Shown piece by piece: positions 44,543 to 49,710 of a stretch of DNA of 64,000 bases. The stretch's first letter is position 1, and each line of letters opens with the position of its first letter. Source of the DNA: Schaalia radingae. Its GTDB lineage: Bacteria > Actinomycetota > Actinomycetes > Actinomycetales > Actinomycetaceae. The notes under the pieces are model-generated. The model was not told where the DNA came from and searched no databases. It was given only the letters and a program-made list of their open reading frames with translations. The position numbers and the translations under genes were made by a program. The stretch spans positions 806,001-870,000 of the forward strand of contig NZ_LT629792.1 of assembly GCF_900106055.1 (NCBI RefSeq), read 5' to 3'.

Positions 44543-44637
44543 GTGAGGGGGCACGGGAGCCCGGACAGGCGGGCTGAGAGGGAAAATTCTCCGACCGTTA
44601 TACCTGAACCAGATCATGCTGGCGTAGGAACGCGGTT
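44543..44637 (+). promoter_or_regulatory. TPP (THI-box) riboswitch
   Basis: The conserved TPP-aptamer elements are present in order: GGGGGCAC, then CTGAGAGG at 44574-44581 (consensus CTGAGA), a linker stem, ACCGTTATACCTGAACC and AGATCATGCTGGCGTAGGAA (consensus GAACCTGATCTGG-TAATGCCAGCGTAGGGAA). It ends about 25-30 bases before the GAGGAG site of the next gene (44661-44666), with no terminator between, which suggests control of translation start. It makes the five genes downstream thiamine-repressed. Confidence 0.93.
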
Positions 44638-44672
44638 TAGTCGTGCGCATTGGTGAGCACGAGGAGCCGCAA

Positions 44673-45827
44673 ATGAATCGAGACGAACAACTCGACATCA
44701 TTAACAATGTGTGGCCACTGATCTCAGATCAGGATGTGGCGGCGCTGGAAGAGCGCCTGGTGGATATGCCGCATCTGGCGGGTGCTTCCGCCCAGTGCCC
44801 GCAGGTCCTCACTCACTCGGCGCGTCCAATGGCCTCGGCGTGTATCGCCCAGCTGGCATGTGGAACACGCGTCTTCATCAAACGCTATGCGCCCCACCTG
44901 ATCAGCGAATACGACCTGTGTGCCAAACATGACTACGTGAACCGGCTTGCCGCAGGCGCCTTCCCGACGCCGCGCTTCTTCACCTTCGATACCGGCAGAA
45001 CATGTCTGACGATGGGCGGATGGGTCTGGGAAGTGAGCGAATGCGCGCCGGGTGAAGACCGTTACCGTGCGACGACCAGCTGGATGCCGCCGTACACACG
45101 CGAAGAGAGCGTGGAAATCGGCCGAGTGGCGGGGCAGCTTCGTCGCGCCTCTGAAAAGATTCCGGCAGTGGTCGCACCGCCCAATCCTTACCAGTCGCGC
45201 ATGGACCTCATGCTGGGTGATCCGTTTGACCGTCTTGAAGCCTGGTGCGAAGCGCACCCCATCGTTGCCAACTATGTGTCCAGAACCGGCCGTGACCTGG
45301 CTGGTGACCTGGCAGTTGTCGCTCCTTTTGCGCGGGCCCTTGAGCCGCTGCGGGAGCGCCCTCGTTACTGGACACACGGGGACCTGCACGTGTCCAACAC
45401 GATGTGGAAGGACACCAGGCAGGGTCCCGTCATCACCAGTGTCTTTGATTTTGGGCTGGCATACGCCAACCCGTCGCTGTTCGATCTGGCACAGCTCATT
45501 GAACGTCACGCGATCGACTGGCTGACCATCACTGAAGGTATCGAAAATGCGTGGCGTCCCCAGGTGGTGCGCGACCTTCTGGACGGGTATGTCAGTCAGT
45601 ACCCACTGATGCGCGAGGAGGCTCGCATGCTCGCGCCGATGGTGGCAGTGTCGAACACCGAGTTCGAACTCGCTGTTATCGAGTATGACCAGCGTGCCCC
45701 GATACCGGGGCGTACGTCGGATTGGGCGTACACGATCGGGATGGATGCTCATCACCGGTGGTTCACCACTGAATCCGGCACTCAATTTATCCGCACAGTT
45801 ACCCAACTAGCAATCGAGAGATCATGA
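44673..45827 (+). CDS. APH-fold phosphotransferase in a TPP-controlled operon (candidate thiamine-pathway kinase)
   Basis: A 384-residue kinase of the aminoglycoside-phosphotransferase/choline-kinase fold. It has the ATP-binding Lys70 in RVFIKRYAP, the catalytic loop HGDLHVSN (residues 235-242) and DFG at 259-261. Being the first gene behind a TPP riboswitch and overlapping the binding-protein gene by four bases (ATGA), it probably phosphorylates a thiamine precursor or thiamine itself, in place of ThiD/ThiK/ThiM, none of which is nearby. The substrate is inferred from context only. GAGGAG precedes the ATG by six bases. Confidence 0.8.
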   Translation: MNRDEQLDIINNVWPLISDQDVAALEERLVDMPHLAGASAQCPQVLTHSARPMASACIAQLACGTRVFIKRYAPHLISEYDLCAKHDYVNRLAAGAFPTPRFFTFDTGRTCLTMGGWVWEVSECAPGEDRYRATTSWMPPYTREESVEIGRVAGQLRRASEKIPAVVAPPNPYQSRMDLMLGDPFDRLEAWCEAHPIVANYVSRTGRDLAGDLAVVAPFARALEPLRERPRYWTHGDLHVSNTMWKDTRQGPVITSVFDFGLAYANPSLFDLAQLIERHAIDWLTITEGIENAWRPQVVRDLLDGYVSQYPLMREEARMLAPMVAVSNTEFELAVIEYDQRAPIPGRTSDWAYTIGMDAHHRWFTTESGTQFIRTVTQLAIERS

Positions 45828-46891
45828 AAACAACCAGGCTTTTGCCCCTCCTCCTCAGCGTCGCCATGCTGGGCGCATGCTCATCAGGCGGATCGTCGGA
45901 TATGTCCTCAGCTGACCAGTCAGGCGCCGACGCCACCGGCCAGTCGGCTTCGCAGGCCTCTGGACAGATGCGTGATGTGTCCGTCATCTTGGACTGGACA
46001 CCGAACACGAATCACACTGGACTGTTCGTCGCCCAGGAAAAAGGCTACTTCGCGGACGCCGGATTGAATGTGGACATCATGGGCTTCTCCAAGTCAGGTG
46101 TTGACGCTGTCCTCAGCGCGAAGGGCGCTGATTTTGGAATCTCGGGAGCAGATGCACTGGCATCGGCTCACGCCGCCAACCTTGGGCTGACGATGGTGCT
46201 GAATATTCAGCAAAAGTCCTCCTATGGCGTGGGAGTTCTGGAAGATTCGGGGATCACCCGTCCAAAAGATCTGGACGGCAAGACAATTGCAGACTACTCG
46301 GGCGATTCGGCCCATATCTCCACCCAGATGATGATTCAGCACGATGGCGGAACAGGCGAATTTGACCGCGTCATTGTGGGCGCGCAGGCGATGGCGGCTC
46401 TGGAATCAGGCCAGGCGGATTTTGCTGAGGTTCTCAGCACGTGGGAGGCAATTGAGGCAGAACTGTCGGGCACCAAGCTGCACATGTTCCAGCCCGCCGA
46501 CTATGACGTTCCCACCACTCCGGCAATGATCGGCATTTCGACGCGCAACGACTTGATCGAATCGGATCCCGACCTTGTCCGCGCCTTCGTGCAGGCAGCA
46601 CAAAAGGGCTACGAGTTCGCCAAGGATAACCCCGATGAAGCGGCGAAAATTCTGGTCGATGCCAACCCACAGGCCAAACTTGATCCCGAACTGGTCACCC
46701 GCAGCCAGGAAATACTCTCCACACAGTATTGGCCTGATTCAAAGGGTGGTGTGGGCTTTGCCGACATTGATCGCTGGAACACCTACCTGGCATTCATTGT
46801 CGAGCAGGGCCTCGTGTATGACGAGAAGGGGACTGCGGTCACCGAACCGATCGCAGCTGACGACATCGTCACCAATGAGTTCGTGAAGTAA
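45824..46891 (+). CDS. thiY: Thiamine-precursor ABC transporter substrate-binding lipoprotein (ThiY/NMT1 family)
   Basis: A 355-residue lipoprotein; signal peptide with lipobox LGAC (Cys19), a Ser/Gln/Ala linker, then a family domain of the NMT1/THI5 type (VILDWTPNTNHTGLFVAQEK, GYFADAGLNVDIM). ThiY members bind pyrimidine precursors such as formylaminopyrimidine or HMP; the TPP riboswitch supports a thiamine-related ligand. It overlaps the kinase gene and is followed by the permease gene after 3 bases. Confidence 0.88.
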   Translation: MKTTRLLPLLLSVAMLGACSSGGSSDMSSADQSGADATGQSASQASGQMRDVSVILDWTPNTNHTGLFVAQEKGYFADAGLNVDIMGFSKSGVDAVLSAKGADFGISGADALASAHAANLGLTMVLNIQQKSSYGVGVLEDSGITRPKDLDGKTIADYSGDSAHISTQMMIQHDGGTGEFDRVIVGAQAMAALESGQADFAEVLSTWEAIEAELSGTKLHMFQPADYDVPTTPAMIGISTRNDLIESDPDLVRAFVQAAQKGYEFAKDNPDEAAKILVDANPQAKLDPELVTRSQEILSTQYWPDSKGGVGFADIDRWNTYLAFIVEQGLVYDEKGTAVTEPIAADDIVTNEFVK

Positions 46892-46894
46892 CAG

Positions 46895-47707
46895 ATGCCC
46901 GCGAGGTACCGCACCGCCGTCTCTGCACGTGAGCGCGACCAACACCACCGGGGCAGTTTCATGCCCGCACTGATGTTTGTGGTGTTGCTCCTGTGCGCGT
47001 GGGAGGTGGCGGTGCGCGCGTTCAACGTCAACGAACGCCTTATGCCGGCGCCCTCGACGATTATCCACGCCGGCTTTGATGATGCGCCCAATGTCTGGGA
47101 AGCCACCAGGATCACCGCCCTTGAAGTTGGCCTGGGAACGGTGCTTGCACTCGTGTGCGGTGTGAGCCTGGCTTTCATCATCTTTGCGATTCGCCCGATC
47201 GGTCGTGTCGCCATCCCTGTTCTCATCATCTCGCAGACCATTCCGGTCGTCGCTATTGCGCCGCTGCTCATTATCTGGTTCGGCTTCGGTATCACGTCGA
47301 AAGTACTGCTGGTCGGATTGTTCGGGCTTTTCCCGATCGTGGTGCCGCTGGCGCGCGGACTGGCATCGCCCAGCAGAGACCAGATTGACGTGGCCACGAC
47401 CTTGGGCGCATCGAAATGGTGGATACTCACGCATGTGCGCATGCCCGCTGCGGCCGCAGTGTTCATGTCCGGGCTACGTATCACCGTCACCTACGGGCCG
47501 GCTACGGCAGCGACTGCTGAGTTTGTCGGAGCGCGCAATGGCTTGGGAATCTACCTGCTGACCGCGCAATCCTCGTTTCGCACCGAGCTGGTCTTTGTCG
47601 GCGCAGCAGTGTTGACGGCGATGACACTGGTGCTGTACGGCGTTGTTGCTCTGGCCGAACGCATTGCGTTTCCCTGGAAAGCGGTGACACATGCTTCACA
47701 TCAATGA
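46895..47707 (+). CDS. thiX: Thiamine-precursor ABC transporter permease (ThiX-like)
   Basis: A 270-residue BPD-type permease of the SsuC/TauC/ThiX group. About six helices; the EAA loop is DVATTLGASKWWILTHVRMP, which contacts the ATPase. The N-terminal ~25 residues are basic. The end overlaps the ATPase gene by 17 bases. Role inferred from operon and riboswitch. Confidence 0.9.
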   Translation: MPARYRTAVSARERDQHHRGSFMPALMFVVLLLCAWEVAVRAFNVNERLMPAPSTIIHAGFDDAPNVWEATRITALEVGLGTVLALVCGVSLAFIIFAIRPIGRVAIPVLIISQTIPVVAIAPLLIIWFGFGITSKVLLVGLFGLFPIVVPLARGLASPSRDQIDVATTLGASKWWILTHVRMPAAAAVFMSGLRITVTYGPATAATAEFVGARNGLGIYLLTAQSSFRTELVFVGAAVLTAMTLVLYGVVALAERIAFPWKAVTHASHQ

Positions 47708-48431
47708 CGTCAGTAAACAATTCCAGGTCCCGCCCACTCTGGCCCTCGATCGCATTTCAGCCACTCTGTACCCACATCAGACTGTGGCAATCGTCGGGCC
47801 ATCAGGATGTGGCAAGTCCACGCTGCTGCGTATCGTGTCCGGCCTGGATCACGCCACGAGCGGCCAGCTCGAATGGCAGGTGGATAACCCGCACGTCGCA
47901 CTGATGCCGCAAAACGACGGTCTGTTTCAGTGGCGCACTGTTGTTGACAACGTCGCATTGCCGCTGTTCATCCACAAACTACCCCCGGCCACGGCACGGC
48001 AGGCCGCCCTCGACCTTCTCGCTCAGTTTGAGCTCGACGAATTCGCACACGCCTATCCGGACCAGCTCTCTGGTGGAATGCGCTCGCGTGTGGCATTTCT
48101 GCGGACGATGCTCGCTGAACCCACATTGATCGCACTGGATGAGCCGTTCGGCGCCCTTGATTCCATGACGCGCGCCGGCATTCAACGGTGGTTGGTCAGC
48201 GCCGCCCGGCAGCGCGCACTGTCGATCCTGCTGGTCACGCACGATGTGGAAGAGGCCATTACCCTTGCTGACAGGGTTCTTGTCATGTCCGCTCGGCCGG
48301 GTCGCATTGTCGCAGATTACCCCATTGATCTGCCTAACCGCACCGATCCCAATCTGCGCACAGATCCCCGGTTCTTACACGCACTCACCAGTATCAGAGT
48401 CGCCCTCGAACAAGGGGCAGAAAGAAGGTAG
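47691..48431 (+). CDS. thiZ: Thiamine-precursor ABC transporter ATP-binding protein (ThiZ-like)
   Basis: A 246-residue ABC ATPase: Walker A GPSGCGKST, Q-loop LMPQNDGLFQW, signature LSGGMRSRVAFLRTML, Walker B LIALDEPFGALD and switch TTHD-like LVTHDVEEAI. It belongs to the nitrate/taurine/thiamine-precursor importer class. Overlaps the permease gene; the next gene starts 2 bases after the stop. Confidence 0.92.
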   Translation: MLHINDVSKQFQVPPTLALDRISATLYPHQTVAIVGPSGCGKSTLLRIVSGLDHATSGQLEWQVDNPHVALMPQNDGLFQWRTVVDNVALPLFIHKLPPATARQAALDLLAQFELDEFAHAYPDQLSGGMRSRVAFLRTMLAEPTLIALDEPFGALDSMTRAGIQRWLVSAARQRALSILLVTHDVEEAITLADRVLVMSARPGRIVADYPIDLPNRTDPNLRTDPRFLHALTSIRVALEQGAERR

Positions 48432-48433
48432 CA

Positions 48434-49342
48434 ATGAACCTCGTCAGAATTCGTCTGGAATACGTCGTGACGTGGCCCAACCACGCCGGCCTGTTCGTGG
48501 CACGCAAGAAAGGCTTGTATGCCGACCAGGATCTGGACGTCGACATCTCCTGGGACGGTTTTGACCGTGGCACGCCCGCTGAACTGACCGCCCGCGGCGA
48601 ATTCCAGTTCGCCTCGATCCGCTTGGGCGAGCTGCTCGAAACCCGGAAGACTGATCACCCCTTTGTTGCGGTCGCCACATTCAACCAGAACCAGCTTGGC
48701 GGCGTCATTACGTTGAAGTCCAAGGGCATCACCCGCTTCCGTGACCTGGAAGGCAAGCATGTGTCGATCCCACCGGTGGGACGCCTGACTGAAATGGTCA
48801 AGGAAGCTGTCGAAAAGGACGGGGGAGACTACTCGAAGGTCATCGTGGAAGATCCTGGCGTGTTCGAGCCGGACATCCGCGCAGTCGAAAAAGGTCATTA
48901 TGACGCGATCTTCAACGTGCTTGGCTGGGAAGCCTACCAGGGGTCGGAAGACTTTGGTCAGGTCGTTCAGATCTCCTTCGACGACATTGAGGTCACGCCA
49001 CACCATGCCTACTTCCTATGCGTCGAAGAGTCCTACCTGCGTGAGCATGGCGACACGGTGCGCAGCTTCCTGCAGGCCACCGGCAAGGGATACGACTTTG
49101 CGCGCGACAATCAGGATGAGACGATCCAGCTGATTGCCAGCACCATGTGCGCCAGCGAAGAAGACACCCTCAAAGCTTCCCTGGCCTTTATGGCGCCCAC
49201 GTGGCACGCGCCCAGTGGACAGTGGGGGCAGATGGACGAGGGGGTCATCCGCTCCTACACCCAGTGGATGGTTGATAACGGGTTCACCACCGCGACGATG
49301 GATGACATTGATGGCGCGTGGACGAACGACTACCTGCAGTAA
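48434..49342 (+). CDS. NMT1/THI5-like protein without signal peptide (cytoplasmic)
   Basis: A 302-residue paralogue of the upstream ThiY, with TWPNHAGLFVARKKGLYADQ matching NTNHTGLFVAQEKGYFADA. It has no signal peptide or lipobox: it begins MNLVRIRLEYVV and the AGAAGG site five bases before the ATG fixes the start. So it should stay in the cytosol. It does not show the CCCFC motif of the yeast Thi5 HMP-P synthase (the matching region reads TPHHAYFLC). Possible roles are an intracellular pyrimidine carrier or an enzyme. It is last in the TPP-controlled operon. Confidence 0.72.
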   Translation: MNLVRIRLEYVVTWPNHAGLFVARKKGLYADQDLDVDISWDGFDRGTPAELTARGEFQFASIRLGELLETRKTDHPFVAVATFNQNQLGGVITLKSKGITRFRDLEGKHVSIPPVGRLTEMVKEAVEKDGGDYSKVIVEDPGVFEPDIRAVEKGHYDAIFNVLGWEAYQGSEDFGQVVQISFDDIEVTPHHAYFLCVEESYLREHGDTVRSFLQATGKGYDFARDNQDETIQLIASTMCASEEDTLKASLAFMAPTWHAPSGQWGQMDEGVIRSYTQWMVDNGFTTATMDDIDGAWTNDYLQ

Positions 49343-49369
49343 GACAACTGCCCGCAGTACGTGAACGCT

Positions 49370-49405
49370 GGGGTGAGGCCGGGAGAATCTGCCCGACCTC
49401 ACCCC
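49370..49405 (+). terminator. Hairpin after the thiamine operon
   Basis: GGGGTGAGG (49370-49378) pairs with CCTCACCCC (49397-49405), extended inward by CGGG/CCCG. It lies 28 bases after the operon's last stop. No T-run follows. Confidence 0.6.
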
Positions 49406-49710
49406 AGATCGTGTAAGAGAAGAAAACCCCGCCGAATCTCACTGCGCTGACGGGTGAGATGACAAAGAGGAACGAGACAAAACGGACAGCGGCGAAAACA
49501 GAAAGCCCTTCAAAGCGACGAAAGTGGAACCCACGAGGACGAACAGAAGATTGTATGAATGTGAATTTCGTTTGTGACAAGAGGGGGAGTGCGATCCGGC
49601 ACGTTCGTCGCTTCAATGCCGTACAGTAGCGGTAAGTGTGAAACGAGTGGGCACTCACTGGCAATGGTGAAGCGTGATCCCTCGTCCGAACGACACATGA
49701 AAGGCCAGCA
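49406..49710. other. Non-coding stretch before the KstD-like gene
   Basis: About 305 bases without a convincing gene on either strand. The composition is purine-rich on the + strand (AAGAGGAACGAGACAAAACGG). It should contain the promoter of the next gene; no good hexamer pair could be fixed, though a TACAGT hexamer lies at 49622-49627. No repeats seen. Confidence 0.5.

Follow-up and report, generated by a model that had tools for sequence, protein, structure and literature searches.

A TPP-riboswitch operon of Actinomycetaceae encodes an unassigned kinase and a second solute-binding protein: a proposed thiamine import and salvage unit

Schaalia radingae carries, in a 64,000-nucleotide stretch of contig NZ_LT629792.1 (positions 806,001 to 870,000, hereafter the window), an operon in which a kinase (KIN), an importer, and a second solute-binding protein (SBP2) follow a thiamine pyrophosphate (TPP) riboswitch. 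Which compound is imported by this operon, and what would the kinase and the second binding protein do with it? With moderate confidence, we favor the view that the operon serves to import and salvage thiamine, that KIN is an as yet unassigned thiamine kinase, and that SBP2 binds thiamine inside the cell as the partner of KIN. The operon was found to be organized as follows, with coordinates given for the window:

44543-44648, plus strand: TPP riboswitch aptamer (RF00059, positions 1-105 of 105, 56.4 bits)
44632-44670, plus strand: predicted hairpin pairing the KIN Shine-Dalgarno sequence GAGGAG at 44661-44666 (ViennaRNA fold)
44673-45827, plus strand: KIN, APH-fold small-molecule kinase, proposed thiamine kinase (start ATG at 44673; Pfam APH)
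45824-46891, plus strand: SBP1, lipoprotein solute-binding protein of the ThiY/NMT1 family, proposed to bind thiamine (Pfam NMT1)
46895-47707, plus strand: ABC importer permease, ThiX-like (Pfam BPD_transp_1)
47691-48431, plus strand: ABC importer ATPase, ThiZ-like (Pfam ABC_tran)
48434-49342, plus strand: SBP2, NMT1/ThiY-fold protein lacking a signal peptide, proposed to bind thiamine inside the cell and to partner KIN (Pfam NMT1)
49368-49407, plus strand: strong hairpin 3' of SBP2 (-31.8 kcal/mol over 49365-49412, no T run behind it)

The initial annotation, made from the sequence alone, had already placed a TPP aptamer ahead of five packed genes, and this was borne out. An Rfam scan of the whole window returned a full-length covariance-model match above the gathering score (E 2.2e-8; cut-off, 54.3 bits), followed by five open reading frames on the plus strand. 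KIN and SBP1 overlap by 4 bases and the permease and ATPase genes by 17 bases, and the other junctions are gaps of a few bases. The hairpin at 44632-44670 overlaps the aptamer match at the 3' end of the aptamer and may represent a translational expression platform, so that control is perhaps exerted at translation. Hairpins around the Shine-Dalgarno sequence were also found in Varibaculum and in locus B of Schaalia canis but were not clear in the remaining loci. The hairpin behind SBP2 was not called by the terminator scan, and promoter and terminator counts showed no excess over shuffled sequences.

KIN matches the Pfam APH family (55.8 bits), and residues K70, H235, D237, N242, and D259 are invariant among the 15 aligned members. 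Its AlphaFold2 model (pLDDT 89) matched N-acetylhexosamine kinase and homoserine kinase in Foldseek at 12 to 14% identity, and the nearest named NCBIfam models were those of homoserine kinase, far below cut-off. ThiK, the thiamine kinase of Escherichia coli, belongs to the APH superfamily, and KIN resembles it in fold and in proposed reaction. However, none of the 15 KIN members matched a ThiK model of NCBIfam (TIGR02721) at E values up to 0.01, and this family search ruled out KIN as a member of the ThiK family. An assignment as ThiD (TIGR00097) was ruled out as well, given the APH fold and the lack of a TIGR00097 match. The kinase motifs of KIN are intact, and the pathway gaps described below suggest a thiamine kinase activity.

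SBP1 matches Pfam NMT1 with 176 bits, and its N terminus harbors a hydrophobic stretch and an LGAC lipobox (read by eye). The operon thus combines an NMT1-family lipoprotein, as judged from this lipobox, with a BPD permease and an ABC ATPase under TPP control, as is typical of ThiXYZ-type importers. The best PDB match of SBP1 by sequence was the C. difficile structure 4nmy (E 2.5e-43), described as thiamin bound in its entry title, and the formylaminopyrimidine (FAMP)-binding ThiY structure 3ix1 of B. halodurans was found at E 2.7e-26. We propose that SBP1, the permease, and the ATPase form a thiamine-specific importer of the ThiXYZ type. A published reconstruction (PMC6593275, with the importers in Table 1) lists ThiXYZ2 and YkoEDC2 as B1 transporters and plain ThiXYZ and YkoEDC as transporters of hydroxymethylpyrimidine (HMP); for B1 salvage, the enzymes given are ThiK and ThiN. 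The operon resembles these ThiXYZ/ThiXYZ2 systems in having an NMT1-family binding protein, a permease, and an ATPase under a TPP riboswitch, but it adds a kinase and a second binding protein without a signal peptide. In some Schaalia, the permease and ATPase are fused into a single protein of 538 residues (L066:9486-11102, L067, and L068).

The second binding protein, SBP2, shows no signal peptide by eye, its sequence opening directly with the first strand of the fold. The same start fits 12 aligned sequences, although the starts of several relatives were chosen by hand and are approximate, some frames being open further upstream. SBP2 is probably cytosolic, as the initial annotation had proposed; its description of an import operon under TPP control, with a kinase that could not be assigned and an NMT1 protein lacking a signal peptide, is supported. 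Residues E9, D41, R45, R63, H190, H191, and C239 are invariant polar residues in the 12 sequences. 3ix1 and 4nmy are the closest solved relatives of SBP2 as well as of SBP1; the SBP2 fold is equally near to both, but SBP2 has no signal peptide and has invariant residues of its own. The structures of Thi5, the yeast HMP phosphate (HMP-P) synthase, appear from the third rank on. SBP2 shares its fold and Pfam family with Thi5, but the residues of the yeast enzyme are not kept: in the 12 sequences, K62 is replaced by I, L, A, or V, and the position of H66 is occupied by E, H, or Q. In agreement with the initial annotation, the CCCFC motif is absent, the aligned stretch being P-H-H. Lys62 and CCCFC are motifs of the yeast enzyme, and its H66 is named in a PDB title. 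SBP2 is thus probably not a Thi5-type enzyme.

To what extent is this arrangement conserved? A credible KIN was found in 16 of 213 genomes of the family, at 18 loci (18 genomes matched at E ≤ 0.001; G504 and G521 were left out as short, weak matches), and SBP2 (E ≤ 1e-30) in 15 of the 213, at 17 loci. At all 17 SBP2 loci, KIN and SBP2 are in the same operon. The five-gene order behind TPP riboswitches, which the initial annotation had suggested checking, was recovered in Actinomycetaceae: the full order KIN-SBP1-permease-ATPase-SBP2 is present at 13 of the 17 loci. The other four, two in S. canis and two in Schaalia sp. Marseille-Q2122, harbor KIN and SBP2 without any importer of this kind within the 17-kb stretch, distant copies not having been searched for. 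Of the 18 KIN loci, 17 have a TPP riboswitch ahead of the kinase gene, 15 of these riboswitches scoring over the Rfam cut-off and two under it (53.2 and 48.9 bits); the only KIN locus without one is the lone kinase of G604 (L065:6139-7257, plus strand), where SBP2 and the importer were not found alongside either. In G562, which is counted among the 13, SBP2 is broken into two pieces (L070:4864-5657, minus strand), and KIN, SBP1, the permease, and the ATPase are all found.

Trees of KIN and SBP2 (12 loci) hold the same resolved clades, and the pairwise identities of the two proteins are correlated (r of 0.91; the 66 pairs compared are not independent of each other). The loci without an importer group in two places, beside the S. 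odontolytica type and beside the metagenome-assembled genome (MAG) S7A, both of which have full operons, so the importer was probably lost twice. The window SBP2 is 77 to 81% identical to those of Varibaculum but only 49 to 58% identical to those of other Schaalia, a pattern that might reflect transfer or differential loss.

A class-wide search with one kinase sequence matched 51 of 394 genomes at E ≤ 0.001, but only the window genome and two others were credible; the remaining 48 were dropped as partial matches of 1.8e-6 or weaker (at most four candidates scored per genome). A KIN profile search at 1e-15 returned the same 3 of 394 genomes (at most five candidates per genome). A nonexhaustive scan of named genome records, for which the aligned SBP2 sequences and two exact patterns served as queries, located SBP2 at no fewer than 10 loci, all in Actinomycetaceae (Varibaculum, a Trueperella MAG, Schaalia, and another MAG), and a scan of genome contigs with a single kinase sequence gave no matches. 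No description of the operon was recognized in the open-licence PubMed Central literature.

The thiamine pathway was then surveyed in 30 genomes, comprising 28 Actinomycetaceae (16 with KIN and 12 without), G361, and G022. ThiC was found in none of the 28 Actinomycetaceae, and hence in none of the 16 KIN genomes, and was present in both others. Intact ThiE was restricted to four of the 28 (G000, G538, G539, and G559); among the KIN genomes, it was not found in 14, broken in one, and intact in one. The broken copy is that of G567, in which thiE is split into two short frames (L180:1893-2581, plus strand) and which also has two KIN-SBP2 loci. ThiD scored above cut-off in three KIN genomes (G000, G567, and G591), and just below it in two (G520 and G604); the other 11 gave no more than background scores, of 40 bits at most. 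By contrast with these gaps, ThiL is present in 26 of the 28 Actinomycetaceae (missing in G551 and G553) and in all 16 KIN genomes. The thiamine pyrophosphokinase (TPK) family PF04263 gave partial matches in 18 of the 30 genomes (35 to 46 of 113 profile positions), 12 of them above the Pfam cut-off. TPK was weighed as another possible origin of TPP, and the four matches examined (G599, G000, G459, and G604) turned out to be the division protein SteA (392 to 503 bits, compared to 21 to 40 bits for the TPK model TIGR01378, cut-off 76.4). No further assigned enzyme forming thiamine monophosphate (TMP) was found in Actinomycetaceae, no genome-wide ThiK search having been made.

ThiL needs TMP. In most carriers, neither use of HMP nor formation of TMP via ThiE seems possible, yet ThiL is kept. 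A thiamine kinase would be the missing link, a role that could fall to KIN, whose gene is under TPP control and adjoins a thiamine-type importer. Furthermore, the carriers have other TPP-controlled importers that likewise look specific for thiamine: all six binding proteins tested (from G599, G591, G551, G459, G520, and G562, five of which are KIN genomes) matched TIGR01254, the thiamine ABC transporter substrate-binding protein, with 180 to 224 bits (cut-off, 93.4), and YkoE of B. subtilis has a thiamine-binding pocket (PMC5037267). Imported thiamine would therefore need a kinase there.

Starting from what the sequences provide, namely the anatomy of the locus, its riboswitch and gene order, the pairing of KIN with SBP2, and the thiamine enzymes not found in carriers, we propose the following model. 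When TPP is scarce, the riboswitch would permit expression of the operon. SBP1, the permease, and the ATPase would import thiamine, KIN would phosphorylate it to TMP, and the chromosomally encoded ThiL would convert TMP to TPP. SBP2 would stay in the cytosol, bind thiamine or a thiamine phosphate, and work with KIN; in the simplest case, it would capture the substrate and hand it over to the kinase. More tentatively, we suggest that KIN-SBP2 is a binding-protein-assisted thiamine kinase, in which a solute-binding protein has become the cytosolic partner of an undescribed APH-fold kinase, and that this pair, which outlives its importer, supplies the missing TMP step in ThiL-positive bacteria without ThiE or a recognizable TPK. 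A cytosolic protein with a fold unrelated to that of SBP2, YkoF, is encoded in the ykoFEDC operon. In its proposed role as an intracellular thiamine binder made together with an importer, SBP2 would resemble YkoF of B. subtilis, a thiamin/HMP-binding protein according to the title of a paper cited in PMC5037267.

Two observations weigh against this model. First, the genome of the window could make TMP without KIN. The initial annotation had stressed that ThiD, ThiM, TenA, and ThiE are missing, which holds for the five-gene operon but not for the genome (2.43 Mb). Two TPP riboswitches besides that of the operon were found there, the second of them just below the Rfam cut-off (53.0 bits):

L004:3908-7051, minus strand: thiM-thiE-thiD and a TenA-like gene (103.6 bits, cut-off 130)
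L005:3664-6731, plus strand: YkoE-type ECF (energy-coupling factor) importer, consisting of a YkoE-family (PF09819) gene and a fused ECF ATPase/CbiQ gene

Second, KIN relatives in two distant actinobacterial genomes outside the family directly follow CytX-like NCS1 permeases, a family annotated for HMP:

L057:8050-10468, minus strand: CytX-like permease and KIN relative
L058:7603-10205, plus strand: CytX-like permease and KIN relative

The relative in G022 (the L058 locus) has a TPP riboswitch ahead of it, and none reaching the cut-off was found in the G361 stretch.

The CytX-like neighbors, and the ThiD, ThiE, and ThiM with which the window genome could use HMP, fit the pyrimidine salvage route favored by the initial annotation, in which the importer would bring in HMP or formylaminopyrimidine, SBP2 would capture it in the cytosol, and KIN would make HMP-P. 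Such a route would also agree with the ThiY-type family of SBP1, with the SBP2 fold being as near to 3ix1 as to 4nmy, and with the listing of ThiXYZ as an HMP transporter in PMC6593275. Nevertheless, HMP-P would be a dead end in most carriers, because 11 of 16 show no ThiD above background and 15 of 16 lack an intact ThiE; where ThiD is present, HMP is already phosphorylated by ThiD, and SBP1 is nearest to a thiamin binder. Given the ThiC, ThiD, and ThiE gaps, the ThiL retained in 16 of 16 carriers, and the proximity of SBP1 to 4nmy, thiamine fits better than HMP, and we do not follow the initial annotation on this point, considering pyrimidine salvage unlikely.

If KIN is a thiamine kinase, KIN-less genomes having ThiL but no ThiE should need another kinase, a control that could have failed. 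Indeed, a P-loop kinase resembling PRK06547 was found downstream of TPP-controlled YkoE-type genes in KIN-less genomes (144 and 132 bits for the two members scanned, cut-off 173). It occurs in 12 of 20 importer or thiE stretches. Of the 30 genomes, 26 gave a match at E ≤ 0.001, and the 18 reaching at least 90 bits were counted as having the kinase, the next best Actinomycetaceae score being 28.8. The 22 ThiL-positive Actinomycetaceae without intact ThiE have KIN only (6), the P-loop kinase only (7), or both (9), and none has neither. The two ThiL-less genomes have neither kinase. Among the four with intact ThiE, KIN occurs in G000 and the P-loop kinase in G538 and G539, whereas G559 lacks both. 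This comparison was post hoc, on genomes chosen by KIN status, and gives support rather than proof; we regard the P-loop kinase as a second candidate thiamine kinase. In many Schaalia, it adjoins TPP-controlled importers of the YkoE or ThiB type (L170:6609-7229, minus strand; L171, L172, L174, L175, L186, and others).

The role of SBP2 can also be read differently. It could be a free-standing cytosolic regulatory domain of the NrtC/CmpC kind whose task would be to sense what has been imported and to gate the importer, not to assist the kinase. Like that domain, SBP2 would retain a solute-binding-protein fold in the cytosol, but the NrtC/CmpC domain is fused to the importer ATPase, whereas SBP2 is a separate protein. 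Moreover, SBP2 stays beside KIN at the four loci lacking a nearby importer, although these genomes possess further importers and might carry a copy of this one elsewhere. We consider gating unlikely.

Quite unlikely, in our view, is that KIN and SBP2 handle another thiamine-related compound, such as a damaged or modified form of the vitamin, which SBP2 would convert enzymatically into thiamine or TMP. In every one of the 66 pairs, conservation is higher for SBP2 than for KIN; SBP2 has the seven invariant polar residues listed above, and enzymes are known on its fold (Thi5, DszB, and MqnA/MqnD are among the structure matches). Catalysis does not follow from conservation alone, and no matching enzyme family was found in Pfam or NCBIfam. 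Finally, we rejected SBP2 as a bacterial Thi5 making HMP-P from pyridoxal phosphate as highly improbable, since despite the shared fold and family and the lack of ThiC in carriers, the Thi5 residues are missing and HMP-P would be useless in most carriers, where ThiD and ThiE were not found.

In bacteria having ThiL but neither ThiE nor TPK, imported thiamine is usable only if something makes TMP. The operon provides one candidate kinase and the genome comparison a second, which may help to fill a missing step in vitamin B1 salvage. SBP2, for its part, would be an example of a solute-binding protein that seems to act within the cell next to a kinase.

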